64,000 nucleotides of DNA, taken from assembly GCA_027603945.1 (NCBI GenBank), contig JADIIU010000005.1, positions 62,001-126,000 on the forward strand, in the 5' to 3' direction. Below, piece after piece: positions 10,882-52,518 of the stretch; within the stretch, counting starts at the first letter, position 1, and the number at the start of each line of letters is the position of its first letter. The translations under genes and the position numbers were made by a program. The notes below the pieces were generated by a model. The model saw only the letters and a list, made by a program, of their open reading frames with translations, had not been told where the DNA came from and searched no databases. The stretch is from Terramyces sp. JEL0728 (lineage: Eukaryota > Chytridiomycota > Chytridiomycetes > Rhizophydiales > Terramycetaceae).

Positions 10882-11904
10882 TCAGCAGAACCAAGGATAG
10901 GTGTACCAGCCGTAGTATCCAGTGATATGATCAAGTAGATTAATTGCCAATGTGTCAGAGTTGCAGGAATCGCTCTCTCCAGCAGGTCCAGTAGTAGCGC
11001 AAAAGTTGGTCGTAGAGCCAAACCTCTTAATTTCATAGTTATCTATATGATGTGCAAAGTTAAAGAATGTTTCTGGCGGCAAGTGCGGAACGATATCTCC
11101 TGATTTTGCAATTCGAAAGATCTTTTTGGCATACGGTAAGCTGTCGATATAGCTGGCGAAATCAACGTTGCCGATTCTTGGTTCACCAAAAGTGTAAATC
11201 GCAATTCTATTTCCGTATTGCGGATTGTTTTGATAGAAATCCATTGCTGCCAGATTTACCACTGCACCGCCTAGTGAATGGCCAGTGAATACAATGTCGA
11301 ATGACGGGTATTGAGCAGCCAATGTGGTTAGACTCGATTGCAGAGTAGGTTGAAGTCCCATATAAGTATTTTTAAATCCTTGATGAATCTGAGCAGTTGA
11401 AGGAGCTTTGGAATTTGCAAAACCGCCAACATCAGCTGGGGTTTTCCATAATGCGATATCTTGAATGCAGGATTGCACATCTGCTGTTCCTCTGACGGAA
11501 ACAACAATCATGTGTTGGTTCGCATTGTACCCTACAAACCCGGCAGCTCCAGTAGCGCTGTTGGAATAGGACCCTACAATTACAGTGCCAGCGGTTGAAC
11601 CTTGGCATCTAACTCCACAGTTCCATGTCTTGCTGCTAGTAGTACTTGGACAGTAAGATGCAACAGCGAATTGCATCATCAACTTGAAGTTGTCGGCGAG
11701 TTGTGAATCGACTTGGCCAGCCCAATCCCTCTTTGAATTATTTGGAATGGGAACGTAGATTTGCGAGGACGGAGCCATTTGTTGCGAGTATTGCGCATAT
11801 GTCATGTTTGGGTTCAGGTTTTCATTGGCAGGAGGGGATGGCCAAGAGTTGTCAACAGCTTGAGGTAATGCAAACGATAGAGCGGCTAGAACAAAGAGTG
11901 ACAT
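10882..11904 (-). CDS. Secreted class 3 lipase, copy 1
   Basis: A 340-residue intronless protein. Signal peptide, a short Pro/Asn-rich propeptide ending in KR (SKRDWAGQ, about residue 59; a Kex2-type cleavage site), then an alpha/beta-hydrolase domain with VVSVRGT, the nucleophile elbow GHSLGGAVVNLAA, TFGEPRIGN, SGDIVPHLPP (catalytic Asp) and DHITGYYGW near the C-terminus (catalytic His). Three or four disulfides are likely. Class 3 lipases hydrolyse triacylglycerols outside fungal cells. It is the most 5' gene product of a three-copy array on the minus strand, closest to copy 2 (12451-13476), with which it also shares its promoter sequence. Confidence 0.95.
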   Translation of the reverse strand: MSLFVLAALSFALPQAVDNSWPSPPANENLNPNMTYAQYSQQMAPSSQIYVPIPNNSKRDWAGQVDSQLADNFKLMMQFAVASYCPSTTSSKTWNCGVRCQGSTAGTVIVGSYSNSATGAAGFVGYNANQHMIVVSVRGTADVQSCIQDIALWKTPADVGGFANSKAPSTAQIHQGFKNTYMGLQPTLQSSLTTLAAQYPSFDIVFTGHSLGGAVVNLAAMDFYQNNPQYGNRIAIYTFGEPRIGNVDFASYIDSLPYAKKIFRIAKSGDIVPHLPPETFFNFAHHIDNYEIKRFGSTTNFCATTGPAGESDSCNSDTLAINLLDHITGYYGWYTYPWFC

Positions 11905-11927
11905 GAATGAGGATGTTTACAGTGCCA

Positions 11928-11968
11928 TTTAAACCAAGATCATAGCGTCAAGTGAAGGAGCACAAGAC
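11928..11968 (-). promoter_or_regulatory. Conserved upstream box of lipase copy 1
   Basis: Reading the plus strand, TTTAAACCAAGATCATAGCG begins 24 bp from the lipase start and is followed after a short gap by GGAGCACAAGAC. The same two blocks recur at nearly the same distance upstream of lipase copy 2 (13504-13542) but not of copy 3. The shared block includes a TTTAAA that may act as a core-promoter element. The function is inference from conservation and position only. Confidence 0.55.
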
Positions 11969-11997
11969 CCCCAAACAAAGAAAAGGATTTGCTCCGT

Positions 11998-12231
11998 TCA
12001 ATAAACTCTGGTGCAACCATAAGGGGGATTGTTTACCGCCGACACATCTTGTTGATTTCCACATTTCCATTCCACTGTTGAGCTCGATGGCTCAGCGATA
12101 TCTACTACTGAAATCTTAAATGGCATGCTCGCGGCACAGGTTGATCCGTTAAATGAATCGAGGCCAAGAAACACCTGCCCACTGCCACTGGTCGCACAAT
12201 CGCGACTTGAACAAGACATGAAAGACAGCAT
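11998..12231 (-). CDS. Small Cys-containing ORF, hypothetical
   Basis: A 77-residue open frame in the gap between lipase copies 1 and 2, same strand. It contains five cysteines, is Ser-rich and has no recognised domain. The first residues (MLSFMSCSS) are only weakly hydrophobic, so a secretion signal is not convincing; an upstream exon could exist but I could not find a good splice pair. It may be spurious. The rest of this gap (12232-12450) shows nothing I can support. Confidence 0.25.
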   Translation of the reverse strand: MLSFMSCSSRDCATSGSGQVFLGLDSFNGSTCAASMPFKISVVDIAEPSSSTVEWKCGNQQDVSAVNNPPYGCTRVY

Positions 12232-12450
12232 AGAGAACTGGACCGTGAAAATGGCGGAGAATTAATTTCTGGTGAACCTGAATTCACTCTTTTGGCAATC
12301 TCCCTGAATCTCGCCAAAAGACTGATTTTCAGCGCTCGGCCATTGGGAAAAATGATCACTTGACCTCTTTCGAATCTTAAGGAGCGCATGGACATGCTGG
12401 AAAGGATACTCTACAAATTTAATGTTTATTGAATGAAATCTAAAAATGAA

Positions 12451-13476
12451 TTAGCAGAACCATGGATATGTCCACCAACCGTAGTATCCAGTGATATGGT
12501 CAACAAGGTTCAACAGCGTTGTATCTGAACTGCAAGAGTCGCTCTCTCCAGCTGGCCCAGTGGTAGTACAGTAATTGGTAGATGATCCGAATCTAACAAT
12601 TTCATAGTTATCAACATGGTGTGCAAAGTTGAAAAAGTTTTCTGGAGGTAAGTGTGGAACGATATCTCCTGATTTTGCAATTCGAAAGATCTTTTGGGCA
12701 TACGGTAAGCTGTCGATATAGTTGGCGAAATCAACGTTGCCAGCTCTAGGTTCGCCAAATGTGTAGATTGAAATTCTGTCTCCGTATTGCGGATTGTTTT
12801 GGTAAAAGTCGACTGCTGCCAAGTTTACTACTGCACCACCCAAGGAGTGTCCTGAAAAGATGATGTGATAATCAGGATATTTTGCAGCCAAGGTTTCTAA
12901 TCCGGACTGCAAGGTCGGCTGCAAGTCCAAATAAGTGTTTTTGAATCCTTGGTGAATTTGAGCAGAGGACGGAGCTTTGTTGTTGGGGAATCCTCCAAAA
13001 TCAGTCGGGGTTTTCCAAAATTCAATATCTTGAATACAAGATTGAATGTTGGCGGTTCCTCTTACAGATACAACAATCATCTTTTGATCTTGGTTGTAGC
13101 CAACAAACCCGGCAGCTCCAGATGAGTAGTTTTCGTGTGATCCAACAATAACAGTGCCAGATAAAGATCCTTGGCATCTAACACCGCAGTTCCAGGTATT
13201 TGAATTAGTTGTACTTGGACAATACGACGAAACTGCCAATTGCATCATCAATGCAAAGTTATTGGAGGTAGTTGCATCAACTTCGCCATCCCACGCTCTT
13301 TTACTTGCAGTGTTTGGGATTGGAACGTAGACGTGAGACGATGGGTCCATTTGTTGAGAGTATTCAGCATAAGTCATGTTTGCATTCAGATCCTCGTTTG
13401 CAGGAGGTGATGGCCAAGAATTATCTGCAGATTGAGGGACAGCTACAGCTAATGAGGCGAATAGGATAAAGGACAT
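12451..13476 (-). CDS. Secreted class 3 lipase, cop2 of the tandem array
   Basis: A 341-residue intronless paralog of the lipase at 10882-11904, clearly its nearest relative. It has the same signal peptide, the propeptide ending in SKRAWDGE, GHSLGGAVVNLAA, SGDIVPHLPP and the C-terminal DHITGYYGWWTYPWFC. The Cys pattern (SYCPSTT, NCGVRC and the C-terminal C) is the same. Differences are mostly conservative substitutions across the surface. The shared upstream box (13504-13542) shows the duplicated unit included its promoter. Confidence 0.95.
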   Translation of the reverse strand: MSFILFASLAVAVPQSADNSWPSPPANEDLNANMTYAEYSQQMDPSSHVYVPIPNTASKRAWDGEVDATTSNNFALMMQLAVSSYCPSTTNSNTWNCGVRCQGSLSGTVIVGSHENYSSGAAGFVGYNQDQKMIVVSVRGTANIQSCIQDIEFWKTPTDFGGFPNNKAPSSAQIHQGFKNTYLDLQPTLQSGLETLAAKYPDYHIIFSGHSLGGAVVNLAAVDFYQNNPQYGDRISIYTFGEPRAGNVDFANYIDSLPYAQKIFRIAKSGDIVPHLPPENFFNFAHHVDNYEIVRFGSSTNYCTTTGPAGESDSCSSDTTLLNLVDHITGYYGWWTYPWFC

Positions 13477-13503
13477 TGTTGTTTACCATTAAATTAACCG
13501 GAT

Positions 13504-13542
13504 TTTAAACAAAGATCAAAGCGTCATCAAGGAGCACACGAC
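13504..13542 (-). promoter_or_regulatory. Conserved upstream box of lipase copy 2
   Basis: The plus strand reads TTTAAACAAAGATCAAAGCG, beginning 28 bp from the start codon, and then GGAGCACACGAC. It matches the box upstream of copy 1 at nearly every position, while the surrounding bases have diverged, so it is the best-supported candidate regulatory element of the lipase array. Confidence 0.55.
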
Positions 13543-14003
13543 AATACAGGCACTGCGCATATTTCCGTCTAGTTGCGAATTCAAGCTGAATTGCCATGTA
13601 ATTTATCGGATTCTTTCGGAGATTCGTGCAGACATGATCGCATATAGTGTCGCTTTCGGGAGGTATTTCCAGCTGTCAAGTTGATCTTGATATTTATTGG
13701 CACGCTTCCCTTTCAACTGACACAGACAACCGCATCTTCCAAAAGTGTATAAAAGAATATTAGCCTCAATATTATAGCGAAATAGTTCAAAGATTCAAAT
13801 TGATTATACAGTGTGCTGTTGAACTTGCTCGATGCGATGATCACTTTTTAGATTCCAGTTGCTCTCAGGTCTTTTGACCAAAATTATTCCCGCAAGTTTT
13901 TCTGGGTCTCTTTCCGCAACAGCTGATCGTAACCATCTGTTACGATCTGTGGTTTATCACCAAATTCCAAATTCAAACATGCTTTATTCTAACAAACCGA
14001 GTC
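13543..14003. other. Intergenic region between lipase copies 2 and 3
   Basis: About 460 bp. I see no convincing ORF. A TATAAAAG occurs at about 13747 on the plus strand, but no plus-strand gene follows it, so I do not call it a promoter. The stretch presumably holds the remaining promoter of copy 2 and the 3' end of copy 3. Confidence 0.4.
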
Positions 14004-15029
14004 TTAGCATACCCATGGATATGTCCACCATCCGTAATACCCAGTGATGTGATCAACAACATTCAACAAAGTAATATCAGATCCACAGGTGTCGGATTCA
14101 CCCCCAGGCCCAGAAGTTACACAGTAGTTGGTGGTAGTGCTGAATCGGGAAATCTCGTAATTGTCAACGTGGTGAGTGAAGCCGAAAAAGTTTTTAGGAG
14201 GAATGTGAGGAACCAAATCTCCAGATTTTGCAACTCTAAAGATTCTGCTTGAGAAAGGAAGGCTGTCAATATACTTTGCAAAGTCCAAGTTGCCCACCCT
14301 TGGTTCTCCAAAAGTAAATACAGAGATCTTGTCGGCTACTGCATCGCCCAAATTGTTGTAAGTGTCCATTGCAGCCAGAGAGACAACAGCACCACCTAAA
14401 GAGTGGCCAGAGAACAAAATGTTGTAGGATGGATATTTGTGAACCAATGCGGCTACTGCAGACTGGATGGTGGGTTGAAGGTCCATATAGGTATTCTTGA
14501 AGCCTTGGTGAATGGTGGCAGTAGATGGAGCATTGCTATTGGCAAATCCTCCCATATTGACTGCAGTTTGCCATAATTCAATATCTTGAACAGCAGATTG
14601 AACATTTGAAGTGCCTCTAACCGCTACAATGATTGCCTGTTGATCATTGTTGTACCCAACATAACCTGCAGCACCAGTTGCATAATTTTCGTGTGAGGCG
14701 GTAATGACTGTATTGGAAGTAGATCCACCGCATCTAACACCGCATTTCCAAGTTTTAGTGTTGGTAGTACTTGGGCAGTAAGCAGCGGTTGCGTATTGCA
14801 TCATCAACGCAAAGTTTGAGGCGGTAGTGCTATCAACTTGTCCAGCCCAGTCTCTCTTGTCCAAGTTGGCGTTTGGATGGACAAAAGTGTGGTCGGATGG
14901 AGTTATTTGTTGAGCATATTCTTGGTAAGACATTGGGGCGGAAAGATTTTCGTTTGCAGGCGGACTTGGCCAGGTAGTGTCGACAGCAGGAGCAGCGAAT
15001 GCAGCAGCGATAAGGAGGTAAAGAGCCAT
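14004..15029 (-). CDS. Secreted class 3 lipase, copy 3
   Basis: A 341-residue intronless lipase, the most divergent of the three. Signal peptide (MALYLLIAAAFAAPA), propeptide ending in DKRDWAGQ, GHSLGGAVVSLAAMD, TFGEPRVGN, SGDLVPHIPP and DHITGYYGWWTYPW are all conserved. Because all three copies keep the catalytic Ser, Asp and His and the KR processing site, all are probably active. It lacks the upstream box shared by copies 1 and 2, which suggests it split first and is regulated differently. Confidence 0.95.
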   Translation of the reverse strand: MALYLLIAAAFAAPAVDTTWPSPPANENLSAPMSYQEYAQQITPSDHTFVHPNANLDKRDWAGQVDSTTASNFALMMQYATAAYCPSTTNTKTWKCGVRCGGSTSNTVITASHENYATGAAGYVGYNNDQQAIIVAVRGTSNVQSAVQDIELWQTAVNMGGFANSNAPSTATIHQGFKNTYMDLQPTIQSAVAALVHKYPSYNILFSGHSLGGAVVSLAAMDTYNNLGDAVADKISVFTFGEPRVGNLDFAKYIDSLPFSSRIFRVAKSGDLVPHIPPKNFFGFTHHVDNYEISRFSTTTNYCVTSGPGGESDTCGSDITLLNVVDHITGYYGWWTYPWVC

Positions 15030-15801
15030 TTTATTTTATGAATAGCCTGAGTTGATTATGGGATTTATACTTTTTTCCAGTCATTGCGCATATCGTGCGT
15101 GAACAATAAACTTGGTGAAAGTCGCTCAATGGCAAATACTACACCGAGATCACACACGTAACTCATCGAGACAATGTATTCTCTCTCGAGCAGCGTCGGT
15201 TCACCGTTCTATCCTAATTGATGGCTATTAATTCGTTTTCCATCTAGATATTGAAACAGACGCGATCAAAGACCAAATCAGGTGTGTCTGTACCCGCAAG
15301 AAAATGGTCGTGTGCACACTAGATTAACCAAATAAAAGGGCAATTATAAACAAATTGACTGTTTTAAACAGTGTTTCCAATGCGAAAATAGTCACTGCGA
15401 ATTTCAAAATACCAAATCGCCAGGTTAAACCCACACTTTTTTGCAAACGGTAGGTTCAGCATGCAAGAAAATACACTTGACGATCTGTTTGCTGCGGTAA
15501 ATTAATTAGAGGCACGCTTATCTGTGATCCAAATATAGAATCAATACAGAAGAAATATGTTAAGCACATTTATAATTTTCTATCGAGCGACTTATTGCGT
15601 GCACACTTCATGCAGCAGTAGTTTCATCGCCAGCCTTGCCGGTGTTATTATTTTTTAATGCTAAAAGACTTCAAAGACTTGTTCATTGACAGCTCGGATC
15701 ATGTGCGAATAGTGCTCGTCCGAGAAACGGAAAATAAGAAACTCTCCGCCATTGGTTATCCTATGCAACGGTACAGCGAATTAGTACATTTATTATAACA
15801 T
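15030..15801. other. Gene-poor stretch of about 770 bp
   Basis: Two short plus-strand frames attract attention: one opening at 15461 (M-Q-E-N-T-L-D-D-L-F) that runs into a GTAAATTAATTAG, and a 46-codon frame at about 15659-15798. Neither could be joined into a longer model with a 17-23 nt intron, and neither has a recognisable domain, so no gene is called. The left part presumably holds the promoter of lipase copy 3. Confidence 0.35.
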
Positions 15802-19926: not shown

Positions 19927-24649
<4,723 letters not shown>

Positions 24650-38527: not shown

Positions 38528-39105
38528 GGCCAGGTTGGGATACTTTTTGCTGTCCAATTTCTTTTGCAGAGGCAATTGCAGTTGCATTAAACTCAGTGAT
38601 TTCCCTACCTTTTCCAACATACTCAGCGTTTTATTTACTCCAGCTGCCAGGTCATTCACTAGCATTAATCCAAAGTACTATTTTTCAGGTTATCATTTAG
38701 GATTTGAAAAGTGCTAACACGCTGAGATATCGTATTACTAATCTTTGTCAGGGTTGAATCTAATGCAATCTTATCCGCATCTAATACTTTCTGTTCTTGT
38801 AAAAGCTTAATTATTGAATGCCGTAGGAATACTTGGAAATTCAATGTAACCTTTACGTATGGATCCGCATCTAGCAAGACTAGTCAGTAATTAATTACAT
38901 TCCGAATTCAAGTGCTTATCCTGGAATAAACTGAATGTTTTTGGTTGTATTGATGATTGAATCAACGGCGTGAATCTTGGGACTTTGTTCAATCGGTCCA
39001 GAAACCCATCTTCTACTGTTATTATTGGTCACCATCGTTTTCCGCTTCTTTATCCGAAACCTTGATTATTCCCAGGTCGGGAAATGAGGTGAGAGATTGC
39101 GACAT
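38510..39105 (-). CDS. BORCS5 (myrlysin)-like BORC subunit
   Basis: Exons 39105-39033, 39015-38899, 38879-38679 and 38658-38510 (introns 17, 19, 20 nt; 17 is the shortest in the window) encode 179 residues, against 196 in human BORCS5. The match is to the block VPRFTPLIQSS (IPTFQPLL in animals), followed by helices with QVFLRHSIIKLLQEQ, VSTFQILNDNLKN and a hydrophobic heptad run ending in SMLEKV. BORC positions lysosomes by recruiting ARL8 and kinesin-1; a kinesin-1 gene is at 54180-57037. The similarity is moderate and lies mainly in pattern, so the name is tentative. The last codons overlap the tandem repeat. Confidence 0.68.
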
Positions 39106-39733
39106 GAAAAGAATGAAAACAAAACATGGTCAAGGGAAAGATAAAAGGTTGCAGGGCATACTTTTGAAAGGAATTAAACGCAGCTTGGCAGCTTGCACAT
39201 GCTCGGAGGCGGCAATAGGAATGACCAGTGAGGCAACTGCAACCAATTAGTGGGGCAATCGCAGTGAGTGAGGGCTTTATTCCAGATATTTCAAAACACT
39301 GACTTTAAAATAATTAATGTGATGCAAGTGCACATTGACCATAAAATAAGGATGGACGAAAAATAAGGAATTTCAAGATCCGCCATAGATTAGAAATATC
39401 AAAGGCACTGCTTTTCTATTGGTGTTCTCAATTGTTCCAGAGTTATCACATGTACCTATTAATCCGTCATATCAAATCAATGCGCGTCACTTACTATGAC
39501 TCATTCAAGCTCATCTCAACAAACCAATTAAGCTATGCACTGCAGGCAGTATGGATGCGGCTAGTAAAATACTGCCAATTTCAATTACTCTCCATTTATC
39601 TTTACACAATTAAAGAGTGAGCCCGTTGTATTTCCTGGGGCCGAGCCAAAGACGGTACCCCCTCAACTCTTTATCACAACCAAGCCACACGCTGATTCAT
39701 TCAAATACCTGACGTGGAAAGTTTAACTTTTAA
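39106..39733. other. Intergenic region of about 630 bp
   Basis: I see no ORF with a recognisable domain and no tRNA-like T-arm sequence. It probably contains the promoters of the divergent BORCS5-like and zinc-finger genes. Confidence 0.4.
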
Positions 39734-41981: not shown

Positions 41982-44900
41982 ATGGCGGCTCTAGCAGAAG
42001 TAGAGTTGAGCAAAAGGCTTGAGGATTACCAAAAGTCTATGGATACAATCAAATCACAGCTGTCAAGCATCAAGGAGAATCTTTCAAAAACAAGCAAGAT
42101 AGAATCCAAGCGCGTATTGACAGGAGTATTCAAAGAATTAGATGTGCTGAAATCTGACATAAGAAAGAGTTTCAAACAAAAAAATCTAGTTTACGTAAAT
42201 GAAGTGCAGTGGTGGCCGAAAAATCTTCAAGAATTCTATTCCTACACTTTTAATGTCCACGATGGCATTCGTAAATACGAACCGACTTCAACAACAGAAT
42301 GTCTCTTCCACCCGCTTTCCATGTTTTCACAACTTTGGAGCAGCTTGTTCATGATTTATCTCTGCATCTATACAGTCCTCCTGCCAAACTTTTTAGGCAA
42401 CGATGATTTGGATTTTGGCCTTGTCCCTCTATCGATTTCACTGACAGTAATGATAATATTGGACACTGTAATTACAATAAAAACTGGAATTATTCTGGAA
42501 CAGGAATTGGAAATGGAACAAAAAACCGTTACAAATTACCATATACAAAAGAAAACGCTGATTTGGAATTTCATTACTTGCATTCCTTATGTAGCTTTTG
42601 TCGGAGCGGATATTAACCCATGGAAGCCAATCTGCATTTTAAATGGATACGCATTTGTCAGGTACTTGAAAAGCAACCGAACTTCATACTTGACTGAATT
42701 GCATAAAAAGGTCTTTATCGACTACAATTTGAACCACCAGCTGAAAAATGTGGCATTGGTCGTCATTGCAATGTTTGTCTACTGGTAAACTTTTCTTAAC
42801 CGCAGGTGTTGGTATGGGGCAGGAATGAACTACATGCAATTCCTAAACGTAGTTACGTACGAGGACTCTCTGGACTCTGAGCAGTATTTTACATCCTTTT
42901 TCGAAGCCTTTTGCAGTGTCTTTAGTACCCAATGGGCAGTCTACCTTGCTTTCACCAAGGTCGAGCGGTGGCTTAAAGTATTTAATATTCTGGTGGTTGT
43001 CGTTATTCTGGCATTTTTCACTGCAAACGTTACCACATATGTGTATCAACTGGACAGCACTTTGAGGAATTTTGATGAAAAAATCAGCCAGATTAAACAG
43101 TTTATCAGATACAAAAATCTTGGGCTGGACCTGGAAGAAAAAATCATGCAATATTATCTCTTCAAGTTTCCGAAACGCAGATATTTTGACGAGGAAAAGT
43201 TGCTGAACCAATTGAACGAGCCATTAAGAAAAGTGATTTTGTGCTAATTGCTAGGATATAGCAATGAAACAGTGCAGGACCTTGATTCTCCAAGTACCGT
43301 TTTTCAAACAAGCAGATCATAGTTTCATTAGCCAAATTATTACCTACCTGAAAATTGAGCACTATTTGAGTGGAGATGTTATAATTGAACAAGGCTCATA
43401 TGGCGATGAGATGTTCTTTATCTTCTCTGGCTATGTCGAAATAATAATGTTTGGGAAATCTGTTGGGGTCTTGAAAGCTGGCCAGTTCTTTGGAGGTAAA
43501 TGCCAAATTAAGTAGAAATTGCGATTTTATTGGGGATGACAAATAGAACTGCAACTGTTAGAGCGATTTCAAACTGTGTCATCTATTCTCTGTCTCAATC
43601 TGATTTGGACCTTGTCATCGATTCAAATCCAGAAATGTCAGACATCATTAAAACTACAGCAGAAGCCAGGCTTGCAAGTGATAAAGCTAAAAGGGAAAAA
43701 GAAAATGGGCCAAAAGCAAAGCTGGAATCAACCCTGGAAGTAAATGAAAATGAGTCGCTGAAAAAGGAAGCACCAAACGAGGTAGCAATCAATATTCTCG
43801 AAAATATTATAAACAGTCCTCAAAATTACAGCAAAGATAATGAAAAAGATAACACTTCACCAGCTGGAAAGGACGATCGTTCCCCTGACATTCCCAAAGT
43901 TGGCGGCGAATCTTCTGCGGATGATTATAGCGCCGTTGCAGATGAAAAAACTCGAGCATTGGATCGTACTAGTTCAATATCCATTAGTATGAACAAAGCT
44001 GCCCAACTGAAAAAAATGAAAAACAAGGAAATTATGAACGAAAGGAACTTGGGGGTATTAAAGCATGTTCAAATGATAAACAAATCCGAAAAACAGCCGC
44101 AATTGCTCGAATCTGATCTGCAGGGCTACCCGCAACAATCAAATTCGGATGAAGAACAATCATTTTCACCATCATCCTCTCAAAAAACTAAAAAGAAAGT
44201 TCAAAGGTAATAGATTTTTGATCTAGAACCCCGGATATCCTTGACGCAATAGATTCAGAACCAGACATTTCAACCACAAAGAAAACCAAAAAGTCCAAAG
44301 CGCAGAGCGTTCCACAAGAAATAAAAGCCCAACCACCTTTTGGCGAAAATGGCGGACGTCGAAACACTTTCGAGGTAGCTTCAGCACCATCGGATACAAA
44401 AGAACCAGACAGCGGCTATAATAACAACACATATTTATCCCCAATTTTAAGCGAAAGTCTTGGCGCTCAAGCTTACACTGAAGCGGTTGATGGCATTCAA
44501 CGAGAAGCCCCTGGAGCTAAAGATAGAAACACAATCACAGAGGAAGAGAAAGAACAGTATTCCACAGAAACCCCAACTGTGGTTGTTTCAGCAATAGACG
44601 AACGCGAAAGTGCAATTAAGAATAAGGAAAATGACAACAAATTCGAGTTTTCTATCAACATTGAGCAGCCAAAGGAGGAGCTCCCACCAAAGAATATACA
44701 GATTGAAAAGCAAGTCAAAAGTGGTCTGCAGAGATCCCCAAGCAATACTAGTCCAATAGCATTGAAATTGTCGCACGATATACTCCAAACACAATTAGGA
44801 ATTTCATATAGCCCAAGCAATCTCAGAAAGAGTTCATTACAAGTCCCAAATAACAGCGTTACACCTGTGCCTATATCGGAACACTTTAAAGATGCGCAAA

Positions 44901-47444
44901 AAGAAATCTTCAATGCCGGTTCAAATGTGAAGCGTGGTGGAACAAGGTCTCGGTCTTCAAGCACCGCTTCCAGCAAAGAATTGAAAGCGCAAAGAGCTGT
45001 TGGCGTATTACATGCTATTCGAAACCGCACGCCAAGTGCTGTGACTGGTATCAATACTCATACGGAATCGGACAAAGAGCAATTTTCTGCTATATTATCG
45101 TCAGTAAAGGAAATCAAGGAAAAAAACTCTTTTAAATCTACACACAATGAAGAGGACAAAAATTTAATGAAGAACTCGGAAATCAAAGAGCTGGAAAAGG
45201 TGGTAGTATCTGTAAAAATTGATACTCCAATATCAGAGGATGGGGTTATCTCCAACTCAAAGAAATCATTCCTACCAAGAACTTTGTCCGATGACAACAT
45301 TCAGAGGAGATCTTTTGACAAACATAAAGCGCCAAAAGCTCTAACAAAACAAAAATCTCTACCAAAGCAAGAAGATCATTTGACATCGCAAGGAAATAAA
45401 TCTCCCCAAGATAGCACAAGGAAAAGCAGAGGCGATTTCAGACCTGACAGATATCAATCAGCATATCTTTCCGAAATCCAAGAGCTTGAAAAAATTCAAA
45501 ATGAAGAGATTACAAGTATTATCGGCAGTATCATGAGGAGGCAATCTCTCAACACGGCTGCGTTAGCTGACACCCAACGCAGCTCCAGAAGTGCGGTAAA
45601 AGATCCGAGACTGTCTCAAATAGCAAGACGCTCCTCTGTTTTGAGCGGAAAACGAAGACCTGGAAATAAATCTACAGGGTCAGATAGTTCAAATGTGGCA
45701 GACCAGATTGTCGAATTCATCGCAAAAACTTCGAGGTCTACCAGTAAAGCATCGGATTTTATTCTCCCAGTGGACGAAGATGATGAAGAGGTATCTGCAG
45801 CAAAAGAAGAAAAGCAAATTGCTGCTAAAGAGCCTCAAGAGGATGCAATGTCGGATATGGGAAGTGGAATTGTCTCTGATACAGGCAGGACTGCCCCACC
45901 AAAAAGGAAGAAAATCGTAAATCAAGTACTGCTGAACGCTCCAGTCGAATATTCGAGAGCAGAGCTTCTAAAACGGTTTTGGAACAAGTACCAACCTTCC
46001 ACATCCTATTGCCCGTTAACTCCATTCACACCTTTCAGCCAATACTTTTACAGCGTTTATATTATAGTGTTCTTAATTACGTCGATTCTGGTGCCTTTCA
46101 CAATTGCATTTCCCGAAGTGAACATGCTACTCGGCATTAGTTTGACGGTTTGCATCATATCTACATTTGAAGTTTTAATTAAGCTACAAACATGCTACTA
46201 TAGCGAAAAGGGGCCGGAAACTGTACCTTCCAAAGTATTTTTACACCATCTGAAAAATGGAAATCTGATCTTTGATCTAATATGCGGACTCCCATGGGTG
46301 TTTTTGGTTGATATGTATGAAAATACCAATGAAGCTGTCCGCTTAATATGCCTAGTGCATATTTTCCCTGTGTATCGCATCTTCAGCACAAATAGACCAA
46401 CTTGGATCGGGGAAAATATTCTGTACATTGTGAGGAAATATAGCATCAATGTATCCGGATTTCAGGCGGGTAAAATTTTATGTGCTATGATTTTATATTG
46501 GTAAATTGTACTTATAGTAGGCACTGGAAAACCTGTATTAAAGTTCTCATGGACCGATATCAGGATGTTAGTTACCCGATGTTTATGGAAGATGACGGCT
46601 ACATGAGTGTGTACACCTTGTATTTCTGGTCAGTTGCGGGTGAGGCAATGTATTCAAGGTAATCGGTCTTTTATGCAAGTTGCGGTATAACAACTGCTCG
46701 TTCAACTCTTGATAAATGGCTGGATGTGGTATTTTTGACTTGCAATGCAACGTTCTATGCCGTCTTTGTTGGTAATATTGCCAGTTATATAATTAGTCAG
46801 GACAGGTAATTGTTTCTTACGCAGTTCTGGTGCGAGATTCCACGAATTGATGGAAGAGGTTGAACAATATATAGATTATATGGGGCTGGGAGTGAATTTA
46901 AAGCAAAAAATACGGCACTATTACAACTTGAAATACTCTCTAGGAAAGTATTTCGACGAAAACCGAATTTTAGAAGAGTTGAATCATCCATTGCGGCTGT
47001 CCATCTGCATGAAGGAATGCAGACCTTTGATTCTAAAAGTCCCATTCTTCAGGGATGCTGATAATGGATTTTTGTCTCAAGTTGTAATGATCTTGAAACT
47101 CACATACTTTTTGCCTGGAGATATGGTGATCGAGAAAGGAACAGTTGGGGATTTAATGTTTTTCATTGCATCTGGCACCTTAGAGGTGGTCGTTGATGTC
47201 AAGCCAATTGCCCAGCTCAATCCTGGCCAATTCTTTGGGGGTATTCAGTTCTAACATAGAAATTGCTCTGCTTTTTGGAAACATGAAGAGAACTGCTACA
47301 ATCAGAGCAAAGACCGCTTGTAATTTATATTCATTATCACGAAACGATTTAAGCTTCATCTTGCAAGTATATCCAGAAATTGCAGAAAAGATGCAGGCGG
47401 TTGCAGAAGAGAGAATCAAGGGCGACACAGCAAGAAAAAAGTAA
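41982..47444 (+). CDS. Two-repeat CNG/HCN-like channel, larger copy (QWA / SCG filters)
   Basis: Nine exons (41982-42784, 42806-43232, 43255-43495, 43516-44206, 44227-46500, 46521-46658, 46680-46805, 46825-47240, 47260-47444; introns 19-22 nt) give one frame of 1766 residues. Unit A (about 75-540): N-terminal coiled coil, six TM segments, filter QWA (310-312), C-linker, and a nucleotide-binding domain with GEIAILLG and NRTATVRA. A Ser/Lys-rich linker of about 750 residues follows. Unit B (about 1300-1766): KYQPSTSYCPL, six TM segments, filter SCG (1525-1527), binding domain with KRTATIRA. Canonical GYG is absent. S4 has only one or two Arg. Frame continuity through the linker is unbroken. Which ion passes, if any, cannot be read from sequence. 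Confidence 0.9.
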
Positions 47445-47551
47445 TCCACTTACCTGTGAATCATGCTATTTAAAATAAACTCGTAGTTTTATCTTGGTAC
47501 GTCATCTACATTTTTCCCGTCACCGCGTTTTAAAATTCAAAAAGTATTTCA

Positions 47552-50500
47552 ATGCCAGCTGGAGAGGATATAAAAGCTCAAGTCGGGAAATTTCACAATG
47601 AATTACTTCAAATTAAAGCTCAGCTGACAGGAATGAGGAACGTCATAGATAATCTCCCAGAAAATGAAGCTAAATCTGCAATGATTGCTCTCAACAAGGA
47701 TGTAGATCTGCTCAAAGACTTTCTAGCGGACGATTTAAGTAAGACTGCAGCAAATAAAAAGGGTAGGCAATATTAATATAGATGTCAAATTAACTGCGGA
47801 GGAAATTAGGGCTACATCTTTGGCCAAGAAATGGTTTCCAAAGAACTTGAAACAGTTTATGCAGTATCAGTACGATGCGAATCGTGGATTAATCGAGTAT
47901 GAGTCGACAGCATCACACCAATGTGCTATTCATCCCTTATCGCTGATGTCTCAGCTGTGGTGTAGCCTTTACTCTCTATGCATCCTGCTATACGCGATTC
48001 TACTTCCACTGTCGCTAGCGTATCCATATAAACATGAAATGCTGCTGCCATTATCCATTTATATCATGGCCATCGTCATAGTTGACACGGTGATGGTGCT
48101 GAATACGGGTATTATTGTGGAGCAGGAACTGGAAATGTACCCTAAATTTGTATATCAATATCATCTGGATTCAAAGTTATTTATATGGAATGTTATATTG
48201 GGATTTCCGTACATTGTCATAATTGATGCTGCAGTTCAACCACCAGGTTCAACCCAAAACATGAACTGGTCTTTGATTTGCATGCTGAATGCTTTTATAG
48301 TGTTGCGTATGTTTACTAGCACGCGAGTTTCCTGGATATCCGAAATGGCAACTAAATTTATTCGAAAGTGGGAAATAAATTCAGCAATCGTCAAGTCAAT
48401 TTCAATTCTTTCTGGAATGGCTTTGTATTGGTAATATTTATTAATTACAGGCATTGGTTTACGTGCGCGGTGTACTTTTTGCAACTGCGAGGAGTTGTTT
48501 CGGATTTGAATCCTACGCTGCAGACTGAGGAATATGAATTTGAACACTACACGATATCGTTTTTTGAAGCTTCTAGTATCATGTTTTCCTCCGGGTAATT
48601 GTTATTAATGAAAGTTGGGGTGTTGCCGGTCCAACCTTGACATCTGATAGGTGGTCAAAGATTTTCAACATGCTCTTATCGGCATTCTTGTTAGCTTTGT
48701 TTACCGCCAATATTACCACTTTTATGCTGCGTTTGGATAGCTCTGGGAGACAGTTTACAGAGAAATTAGAGGAAGTAAATCAGTATATCAAGTACAAGGG
48801 ATTAGGACGAGATTTACAGCAAAGAATTGTACATTATTATCATTTCAAGTATTCCAAAGGAAAATACTTTGACGAAGAAAAGATTTTGGCTGAATTAAAC
48901 CATCCGCTTCGAGTGGTAGATCCAGTTTAAACATAGTCAATTTGTATGAGAGAGTGCAGACCGCTCATCCTTCAGGTTCCGTTTTTCAAAGATGCAGACC
49001 ACACTTTTATCACCCAAGTAGTTTCTCAATTGAAAGTTAATCACTTTTTACACGACGACTTTATCATAGAGCAGGGGACCACTGGCGATCAAATGTTCTT
49101 TATCGCGTCAGGGATTGTGGAAGTCATTGTAGAGGGCAAAACAGTGACAACTTTGAAAGCTGGGCAATTTTTCGGGGGTAATTTACATTTTACCTAGAAA
49201 TTTCTCTGTTGTTTGGCAATATAAAACGAACGGCGTCTATTAGAGCTATTACAGAGTGTGTTTTGTACTCGCTCGGTCAAGGCGATTTGGAAATTATTTT
49301 GGACTTGAATCCGAATATGGCTGCGATGATGAGAAAAACCGCAGAGGAGCGCATTGCAAGCAACAAGGTTGAAATAGTTATGCTGTCAAAAAATACTCCA
49401 GCTCTAATAGACCGGACATATTCAATTGGAAACATGTCAAGAAAGAATTCGCTGTTCCCAGTGAAAGGCGCGCTGGACATTTTGGCTGAAAAGAAAAGGA
49501 GAGTGTCACAAATGCAATCAGGAAACAATTCGCACTTTCATACATCTACTTTGGAGGCTCCTATTGAAAACGAAGCTGAGGAAGAGCTGCCATCTATTCC
49601 GATTAACCCGCAAAGCCCTTTCTATGCCACAGATGCTGCGTCAAAGAGTAAAATATTGGAACAAGTGGAAAACTCTGAAATCAAGGAAGTACTGAGCGCT
49701 GTTAAACGAAAGTCGTCAGTGCAAAACTTTGTTGATAGATCATTTATTAACAAACACATTAGTGTTGAAAATATGAACAACTCTGAAATATTGAAATCGA
49801 TTGAATTTTTGGGCAGCAAGAATAGCAAGAGATCGATTCTAAGTTTAACGGTGCCCGAAGAGAAAATATTGCCTGTTTCAGTTCCGGTTCTCTCCATAGC
49901 AGAAGATAAAGAAACGAAACCTGCTCCTAAAGACGGCAGCGGCAAAATTATTGCATCCGCAGAAGCTGCTACTCCTAGCAACGATGTTAAGATTGATTTA
50001 GACAAAGAAAAAGACGATTTTGATGATGAGGAAGCTAAACCTAAAGCAACACCGAAAAAAATAATGCAGCAAACCATAGATAACGACCCTGTGAAAAGTG
50101 GCAATAATACAAACACGGGCAACTTTGACCAGCAGACATTTAGTCAGAAGCTCACCAGGCTGTGGAGTAAATATCAACCGTCCACTTCATACTGTCCTCT
50201 ACATCCGAATTCGCTGTTTTCTAGAATTGCAAATAGTGTATTCACAATTATTTACCTGATTGTAGCAATTGTGCTGCCAATTTCTTTTGGGTTTGAAACT
50301 CAGACAGATGTGCTGCCCAGTATAAGCGTTGTAGTATTCATAACTTCCTGTTTCGATTTCGTGTTAAAACTGCAAACGGGCTACAAAGTTCACCAGGAAG
50401 TAGAAATGGAACCAAAGAAACTAATAGCTATTTATTGGCTGAATGGCTCTTTTCTTGTAGACTTTATTACTGGAATCCCATGGGTGTTTGTCGTTGATGC

Positions 50501-51633
50501 TGTAGTGGCCGATCCTGTCCAAAATAGCTGGTGGAGATTAATTTGCTTCGTCCACGCCTTTCCATTAATCAGGATCCTTGTTGGTAATAGATCATCGTGG
50601 ATTGCAGACTATATGACTGACTGGGTTCGCAGAAATGACGTTAATGTTTCCGCTGTGCAAGCAGGAAAGATTTTGTTCACTATGAGTTTATACTGGTAAT
50701 GTTTATCTCAAAATAGGCACTGGCACACCTGCTCCGCAAACTTTTTGATTAGAATGCAGGTTATTCCAAACGCGTTTCCTATATATGGTGAAGCAGATAT
50801 GTACACTCTCCACTTTTGGTCGTCTGCAACTGAAATGCTTAACACTGGCTGTGGTGCAGTACCACCTAAAGTACCACTTGACAGATGGCTGAAAATTCTG
50901 AATATGATTTGTAACGTATCCCTAATGTCTCTTTTTGTTGGCAACATATCTAGTTTTATGATTGGGCTGGACAGGTAACTGAAACTAATGTAGTTCTGGT
51001 CGCCAGTTTAACGAACAGCTGGAACAAGTAGGACAATACATTACATACAAAGGACTAGGCCGTGAATTAAAGAAAAAGATTTTAGACTATTACCAACTGA
51101 AATATTCACTGGGCAAATACTTTGATGAAACCAAGATTTTATCTGAATTGAACCATCCTCTCCGTCTGGTAACTTGCTGTAACTCTAGGCCATCTACATG
51201 AGGGAATGCAGAGCTTTGATTATCCAAGTGCCATTCTTTAAAGGTGCTGACAATGGCTTCATATCGCAAGTCGTGATGATTTTGAAACCAGCCCACTTTC
51301 TTAAAGATGATTTGGTCATTGAAAAAGGCACAGCTGGAGATTTGATGTTTTTCATTGCATCAGGAACATTGGAGGTTGTTGTAAATAACGTGGCGGTTGC
51401 TCAATTATCGCCAGGACAGTTCTTTGGGGGTATATATCCTTAACGTAGAAATTGCATTGCTATTTGGTAATATGAAGAGAACTGCTTCCATAAGGGCGAC
51501 CTCCTCGTGTAATTTATATTCATTATCACGATCAGATCTTAATTTCATTCTAGAAGTATATCCAGAAATGGCCGAGAAGATGCAAAAGATTGCAGAGGAG
51601 CGAATAGCAAACAACTTGGGCAAGAAAGACTAG
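47552..51633 (+). CDS. Two-repeat CNG/HCN-like channel, smaller copy (GWG / GCG filters)
   Basis: Ten exons (47552-47762, 47782-48430, 48451-48594, 48615-48915, 48937-49177, 49198-50695, 50717-50974, 50994-51168, 51189-51429, 51449-51633; introns 19-21 nt) encode 1300 residues. Unit C (about 75-545): coiled coil, FPKNLKQFMQYQYDAN, six TM segments, filter GWG (335-337), binding domain with GEISLLFGNIKRTASIRA. A linker of about 260 residues leads to unit D (about 830-1300): KYQPSTSYCPLHP, filter GCG (1059-1061), GEIALLFG and KRTASIRA. It lies 107 bp after the first channel gene and is its closest paralog (A with C, B with D). The YW|H/C and FG|E introns occur at the same place in all four units. 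Confidence 0.9.
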
Positions 51634-51666: not shown

Positions 51667-52452
51667 TTACCAATCGATTTCAGCAGGAAAGAATTCCGAA
51701 ATCAGATTTTGGTAGTAATTTGATACAGATAAGAGATCTACAGACAGAGCGGATTTTGAATACAAGTCGTACTTGTTGAAAGCATTCAACCACTTTAGAT
51801 TTTCATAATCACTTTGAGAAAACAATTCTTTGTATTCGCCAGCAGTATGAGCAGCGTAGAAAGAATGATACCTAATGATAAAGCAAGCTTCGGTCGGGAG
51901 ATATCTCTTTACAACTTGGTACAAGTACTCGTCATGTCCAAACGCCATCAACACATTATCTAATCCGCAATTTGCAGAATACATTCCCAGTCCTGAATTG
52001 TATTTTGGATTTTTGGAGTCTGGATTTCCCACAAAATACTCTGGGTACACTATTTTTGGAGAGAATGGAAGGCCAAGAGGAAAAGTATCCCCAACTACAA
52101 AATGCTGGGGTTCTCCAAATGTAACAAGCAGCTTTCCAAGGTCATGGATGAGGCAAGTCAAAATAAACCATCGCGGCTGCCCATCTTTCCGAGCAGCTTC
52201 CGCAGATTGTAAAGCATGTTGTATTTGAGACAAATCTGTATCTGGATCTGAATCATCCGTTATTGTGCCGAGTATTTCCATCACTTCCCAAACGGATTTC
52301 TTTCCTTTGTCCAATCTACTGTATTCTCTAGTCTTTTCTAAGGCAGTTTGAAATGTCTGCTGCTCGTGGTTCAATTTATACACATTCGCAACGGATGGCT
52401 TCACAGATCTCGCCAATTCATAGTCTCTAAATAAACTTTGGTTGGATGGCAT
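51667..52452 (-). CDS. MIOX: Myo-inositol oxygenase
   Basis: A 261-residue intronless enzyme that opens myo-inositol to D-glucuronate using a mixed-valent di-iron centre. Ligand blocks are visible: HALQSAE, LIHDLGKLLVTFGEPQ (H and D), GHDEYLYQV (H, D) and RYHSFYAAH (H), then NKYDLYSK. It ends in IDW, as MIOX proteins end in SW/DW-type tails. The ATG at 52452 follows the family start; an upstream TTG frame extends slightly. MIOX is common in plants and animals and patchy in fungi. Confidence 0.95.
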   Translation of the reverse strand: MPSNQSLFRDYELARSVKPSVANVYKLNHEQQTFQTALEKTREYSRLDKGKKSVWEVMEILGTITDDSDPDTDLSQIQHALQSAEAARKDGQPRWFILTCLIHDLGKLLVTFGEPQHFVVGDTFPLGLPFSPKIVYPEYFVGNPDSKNPKYNSGLGMYSANCGLDNVLMAFGHDEYLYQVVKRYLPTEACFIIRYHSFYAAHTAGEYKELFSQSDYENLKWLNAFNKYDLYSKSALSVDLLSVSNYYQNLISEFFPAEIDW

Positions 52453-52518
52453 TTTCGCAAATGGAAAATTAGTCAATGCACAAAACTATCCAGTTGAGCT
52501 CTTTTATTAAAACATAGC

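Follow-up and report, generated by a model that had tools for sequence, protein, structure and literature searches.

The window analysed here is a 64,000-nt stretch of the genome of the chytrid Terramyces sp. JEL0728 (contig JADIIU010000005.1, positions 62,001 to 126,000 of the forward strand). Between positions 41982 and 51633 it carries two adjoining genes, each predicted to encode two complete channel units of the HCN/CNG type in one chain. The four units (A to D) each comprise six transmembrane (TM) segments, a pore, a C-linker, and a cyclic nucleotide-binding domain (CNBD). The features of the locus, in window coordinates, are as follows.

41982..47444, plus strand: gene 1, predicted two-unit HCN-like channel protein (9 exons, 8 introns, 1766 aa)
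42294..43685, plus strand: unit A (residues 105-547), matching HCN1 (E 3.1e-44)
42927..42938, plus strand: filter region of unit A, TQWA, with no GYG
43686..46003, plus strand: A-B linker, 766 aa, predicted coding from identity to Boothiomyces proteins and codon score, containing the next feature
44207..44226, plus strand: intron in the A-B linker, 20 nt, GTAATAGATTTTTGATCTAG, between exon 4 and exon 5, chosen by the splice-path script
46004..47441, plus strand: unit B (residues 1314-1766), matching HCN1 (E 4.9e-53)
46654..46686, plus strand: filter region of unit B, SSCG, split by the intron at 46659-46679
47445..47551, plus strand: spacer between gene 1 and gene 2, 107 nt, with a negative codon score in all three frames
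47552..51633, plus strand: gene 2, predicted two-unit HCN-like channel protein (10 exons, 9 introns, 1300 aa)
47916..49367, plus strand: unit C (residues 116-572), matching HCN4 (E 2.9e-60)
48590..48621, plus strand: filter region of unit C, SGWG, split by the intron at 48595-48614
49368..50186, plus strand: C-D linker, 273 aa, within a single open exon (open reading frame [ORF] 49182-50699)
50187..51630, plus strand: unit D (residues 846-1300), matching HCN1 (E 6.5e-60)
50844..50855, plus strand: filter region of unit D, TGCG, with Cys in place of the Tyr of GYG

The gene models rest on genomic DNA and predicted splicing. No internal stop was present in either spliced gene, and the introns measured 19-22 nt in gene 1 (n=8) and 19-21 nt in gene 2 (n=9). 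When the intron at 44207-44226 was retained, the frame of gene 1 stopped at codon 722. A splice-path script, whose intron rules were written after the introns of both genes had been seen, recovered both models exactly with a codon table made from the two genes themselves. When codon usage was instead taken from 13 ORFs lying outside the region, 8 of 8 introns in gene 1 and 8 of 9 in gene 2 were recovered; the script ended gene 2 at 51443, inside the last intron. This shorter model tied with the full one at a printed score of 128 bits because the last exon contributes only ~0.6 bits. A first-pass annotation of this DNA had proposed that the frames run open throughout once 8 and 9 introns are removed, and that each of the two adjoining genes encodes two complete CNG/HCN-like units. 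The first of these proposals was reproduced, giving proteins of 1766 and 1300 aa, and the second was borne out by matches to solved HCN structures.

These matches ran nearly from end to end of each unit (4-439 of 443 residues in A, 7-447 of 455 in B, 5-452 of 457 in C, and 5-456 of 457 in D), and the homology to HCN spanned S1-S6, the C-linker, and the CNBD in all four. The unit boundaries were the same with a profile made from the four units themselves. Pairwise identity was highest between B and D (54%), followed by C-D (48%), B-C (42%), A-C (40%), A-D (35%), and A-B (33%). In Pfam searches, cNMP_binding was found above the cut-off twice in each protein; no Ion_trans match reached the cut-off in either.

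Both linkers are predicted to be coding. The A-B linker was 54% identical to that of P0004 from Boothiomyces sp. JEL0838 (386 of 721 aligned pairs), whereas shuffled A-B linkers (n=50) gave at most 176 identical pairs with this protein. It was also 51% identical to that of P0102 from Boothiomyces sp. JEL0866 (374 of 727 pairs), with which the C-D linker shared 67% identity (181 of 272 pairs). Over its whole length, the gene 1 protein was 61% identical to P0004 across 1894 alignment columns. Codon scores, calculated with the table from outside the region, were +0.187 bits per codon for the A-B linker and +0.158 for the C-D linker; they were at least as high as those of the units and positive in the used frame only. 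One JGI metagenome protein (P0002, a protein-level record) combines a first unit with a linker and the TM part of a second unit. A chance open frame was rejected since the A-B linker is stop-free only in the used frame, with 19-50 stops in the other five. A frameshift or assembly artefact was likewise rejected because both linkers have conserved counterparts in other records; the GenBank record of the same genome (P0103), which derives from the same DNA and is not independent sequencing, agrees at 766 of 766 residues of the A-B linker and 273 of 273 of the C-D linker.

A third gene of this kind was found on another contig (L056:1796-9006; G000:C43). Its model of ~2320 aa, in which one intron was missed, contains two channel units (E and F) followed by ~7 extra C-terminal CNBDs, and GenBank P0001 and P0003 each contain nine CNBD stretches. 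P0003 (Terramyces sp. JEL0728) is a version of this third gene from which TM segments have been dropped. We placed 28 units in a maximum-likelihood tree (LG+F+R4): 6 from Terramyces, 11 other tandem-type units, 6 from chytrid single-unit proteins, 3 of animal HCN type, and 2 bacterial. First units separated from all others at 99.8/100 (SH-aLRT/UFBoot) and second units clustered at 98.9/99; within the two clades, support was partly weak, down to 20/31. All six Terramyces units share a phase 2 intron in S5 and have a phase 1 intron in the CNBD, which in F is displaced by 7 columns where the model missed an intron. From the separate clades of first and second units, we infer a single event of duplication and fusion of one unit, after which the two-unit gene was copied. 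The nearest relatives are chytrid HCN-like proteins with one unit per record (P0010, P0011, P0030-P0032, and P0035), which lie outside both clades; the flagellated-fungus setting that had been suggested for these genes was correct.

Three metagenomic records (P0002, P0008, and P0034) seemingly derive from one contig (listed length 353972) with at least two tandem channel genes, and clustering may therefore be conserved. P0034 and P0008 apparently belong to a single gene that was split at the FFG-E intron. Another metagenomic protein, P0025 (1564 aa), has ~3 CNBD-channel modules per chain and apparently lies outside the chytrid family.

We examined the residues expected to govern conduction and gating. 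A pore had been assigned to each unit in the first-pass annotation, and the pores were present; the GYG signature, however, was absent from all of them and from the third gene as well (SEWA in E, and NGCG in F with corrected splice), that is, from 6 of 6 units of the Terramyces genome. In all nine first-type units the position of the GYG Tyr was occupied by an aromatic residue (Trp or Phe), and in all eight second-type units by Cys; P0007 and P0034 (first-type) and P0009 (second-type) were typed by similarity, the counts without them are 7 of 7 and 7 of 7, and several rows are orthologues and therefore not independent events. Outside this table, inspection by eye revealed Trp in P0104, P0106, and P0107 and Tyr in P0108 (SGYS). 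The chytrid single-unit proteins had an aromatic residue (Trp or Phe) here in 6 of 6, with G-W-G or G-F-G in five and S-W-G in the sixth. The S4 stretch contained 0-4 basic residues in the six Terramyces units, compared with 7 in two vertebrate HCN rows, and was charge-poor in the single-unit proteins too. In the phosphate-binding cassette (PBC), the Glu, Arg, and Thr were present in all six Terramyces units. The C-helix position scored here, which we take to be that of CNGA1 D604, was Asp in four of the six units (A, B, E, and F) and Asn in the other two (C and D).

These features could also be explained if the six TM segments no longer conduct ions and the chains serve as membrane receptors for cyclic GMP (cGMP) or cyclic AMP, or as dominant modulators of another channel. 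The lack of GYG in the six Terramyces units, the proteins' escape from Ion_trans, the charge-poor S4, and the ~7 further CNBDs of the third paralogue would all fit such pore-dead sensors. However, the filter position is conserved per unit type across records, unlike random decay, and the single-unit relatives have the G-W-G, G-F-G, or S-W-G filters noted above. The HCN matches also extend across S5, the pore helix, and S6. We consider this explanation rather unlikely.

It is distinctly improbable that the locus is a single gene for a four-repeat, CNGK-like chain A-B-C-D, from which the stop after unit B is spliced out. Two GenBank records are annotated in this way: P0103 (HDV01_005664, Terramyces sp. 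JEL0728, 2892 aa) merges genes 1 and 2 into a four-unit chain, and P0102 (Boothiomyces sp. JEL0866, 3134 aa) is merged likewise. An in-frame intron of 104 nt with a GTAA donor is possible at 47441-47544, P0102 and the reading of the spacer agree in the last two residues before the Met of gene 2, and in CNGK repeats 1 and 3 and repeats 2 and 4 are alike (as PMC7576140 states in describing that channel), which may be compared with A and C, and B and D. Counting against two genes, a joined path scored 313 when introns of up to 60 nt were allowed and 329 at up to 150 nt, compared with 212 for gene 1 alone; the joined paths ran through either two introns (46 and 58 nt) or a single 104-nt one. The script, however, reads on into a second gene at no cost, and a higher joined score is therefore expected either way. 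No path led from gene 1 into gene 2 when intron length was capped at 24 nt, and 17 of 17 introns in the two genes measured 19-22 nt. The spacer lacks a coding signal, Boothiomyces P0004 ends at the same place as gene 1, and gene 2 has its own N-terminal stretch, as does gene 1. P0102 has 28 residues at the join, all but the last two without a counterpart in the Terramyces spacer. P0103 achieves the join only by leaving out the last exon of gene 1, approximately half of the CNBD of unit B, and its unit B is short by 103 residues overall. It differs from genes 1 and 2 by skipped stretches, with all aligned residues identical in 7 of 8 segments and 104 of 105 in the eighth. We judge the merged record to be an annotation error, and half a binding domain was omitted probably because very short introns were missed. 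That the units are made singly, by alternative ends or by cleavage of a linker, and assemble as ordinary four-subunit channels is very improbable: a 766-aa linker could be cut, but the linkers are predicted to be coding and are conserved (54% and 67%), P0002 holds both kinds of unit together, and first and second units fall into distinct clades.

Next, potential sources and readers of cyclic nucleotides in the Terramyces genome were considered. A rhodopsin-guanylyl cyclase fusion of the CyclOp type was found on the minus strand of L057 (G000:C47:52500-57500), where one strand encodes both a type I rhodopsin and a guanylate cyclase; the spliced piece, in which the two domains were joined via a 20-nt intron placed by eye, matched Bac_rhodopsin (E 7.8e-30) and Guanylate_cyc (E 7.9e-50). 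For class I phosphodiesterase, 15 matches at the level of exons were recorded in the genome. Two cyclase genes with the same exon layout and near-equal scores lie ~18 kb apart on contig C26, at ~20532-21127 and ~38923-39518 (L011-L014 and L016). We looked for a canonical CNG channel at other sites of the genome by proximity of Ion_trans (at least 9 matches) to CNBD (at least 36 matches) and found none, no two lying less than 11 kb apart among the matches listed; divergent or split genes may escape this search. Of 23 genome matches to a bacterial channel query (P0039), 6 lay on contigs other than C43 and C5, the latter carrying the window. Four of these were CNBD parts (on C50, C45, and twice on C75), and two were TM parts, on contigs with no CNBD among the matches listed (C11 and C98). 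Inspection by eye, limited to the 2.5 kb around the CNBD on C50, showed no channel. Because a rhodopsin-guanylyl cyclase is present and none of the listed Ion_trans matches is close to a CNBD, the tandem proteins appear to be the best candidates for a cGMP-gated effector in Terramyces. According to the relevant part of PMC9616733, Globomyces pollinis-pini has a rhodopsin-cyclase but no BeCNG1, and Globomyces carries P0007, a first-type unit of the chytrid tandem family. Terramyces and Globomyces belong to Rhizophydiales; from these findings together, we propose the tandem proteins as the cyclic-nucleotide effector in that order.

Overall, we assign a probability of roughly 0.6 to the explanation that the locus encodes paralogous two-repeat HCN/CNG-type subunits that pair as chains, are gated by cyclic nucleotides, and operate in a photoreceptor-linked setting. 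The sequence itself shows the two-unit chains, the coding linkers, a single fusion that preceded duplication of the genes, the changed filters and S4, the retained CNBD residues, and the cyclase gene; pairing of the chains, ion conduction, gating by cGMP, and a place downstream of the photoreceptor are inferred. Under this explanation, each of the adjoining head-to-tail paralogues would encode one subunit, and a pair of chains, both from the same gene or one from each gene, would form a single four-fold pore, as the first-pass annotation had also inferred. In its ring, first-type units with an aromatic filter would alternate with second-type units with a Cys filter. Gating would depend on binding of a cyclic nucleotide, in all likelihood cGMP, to the CNBDs; given the charge-poor S4, voltage would hardly contribute. 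The rhodopsin-guanylyl cyclase and the other cyclases of the genome would supply the cGMP, and the natural setting would thus be the steering of zoospores by light or chemicals. Gene 1, with the most degenerate filters (TQWA and SSCG, compared with SGWG and TGCG in gene 2), may serve chiefly to modulate its partner, gene 2.

Several points weigh against this explanation. With such altered filters, conduction could have been lost, most of all in unit A, and Asp or Asn in the C-helix does not prove a preference for cGMP. The link between the rhodopsin-cyclase and the tandem channels is one of co-occurrence only. The Ion_trans search could miss another divergent channel, just as the tandem family itself evades Ion_trans, and the Boothiomyces records used for the linkers are themselves predictions. 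A more specific form, which we regard as unlikely in its entirety, is an obligate heterodimer of A-B and C-D with four different units, its filter positions alternating between aromatic and Cys, which would serve the rhodopsin-guanylyl cyclase of Rhizophydiales as cGMP-gated effector in the place of BeCNG1; the gene pair would then be a living intermediate between two-repeat and four-repeat channels.

If the favored explanation is true, the tandem channels may provide the output that the light sensor of this fungus has been missing, and they offer a testable candidate for the reader of cGMP in Rhizophydiales. The unit-type-specific filter position, being conserved across records, constitutes a natural experiment on the need for GYG. 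The analysis also flags a GenBank record that lacks half a binding domain, probably through overlooked very short introns.

In the same window, three further loci on the minus strand were observed by eye. Three similar lipase-like ORFs lie in series at 10882-15035, an AROM-like multifunctional enzyme is spread over two ORFs at 19927-23978, and a myo-inositol oxygenase-like ORF is located directly downstream of gene 2 at 51667-52485.

Finally, we compared the Terramyces proteins with known channels. Animal HCN channels provided the best solved-structure matches of units A-D and are alike in the C-linker and CNBD. They have one unit per chain, a CIGYG filter, and an S4 rich in Arg and Lys, whereas the proteins of genes 1 and 2 have two units, no GYG, and a charge-poor S4. 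BeCNG1 of Blastocladiella emersonii is a fungal cyclic-nucleotide channel from a genome that also contains a rhodopsin-guanylyl cyclase (PMC4046227); the passage describing it gives the K+ signature GYGD, and by this description it is set apart from the Terramyces units. The first-pass annotation had regarded a two-repeat form as a different architecture, which does not hold, since two-repeat tandem CNBD channels of dinoflagellates and oomycetes were reported in 2020 (PMC7576140). As described there, these channels have two 6TM-CNBD repeats per chain, with the repeats in separate clades as in Terramyces; the likeness noted here is one of architecture. The two-repeat architecture itself is thus known in other eukaryotes. 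For fungi, no printed report of it was found in literature searches limited to open-licence papers; in the relevant portions of PMC7576140, fungi appear only as owners of Kv-like channels, and the word 'chytrid' is absent from its main text. Two-repeat CNBD channels would thereby be extended to fungi. The same source, where it treats filters, describes significant deviations as rare, with animal CNG as the only clade-wide exception in its data and plant CNGC also named. Because its two-repeat channels keep TVGYG or close variants, in contrast to TQWA, SSCG, SGWG, and TGCG in Terramyces, the unit-type-specific non-GYG filter predicted here is what is new in the chytrid tandem family. The four-repeat sperm K+ channel CNGK, as described in PMC4749565, likewise consists of fused units, of which 1 resembles 3 and 2 resembles 4, a pattern that recurs in the pairs A/C and B/D. 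CNGK has four repeats per chain and GYG or GFG pores, whereas the Terramyces gene models favored here have two repeats each, are separated by a stop codon, and lack GYG. The adjoining A-B and C-D pair would correspond to the state expected just before fusion into such a four-repeat channel.

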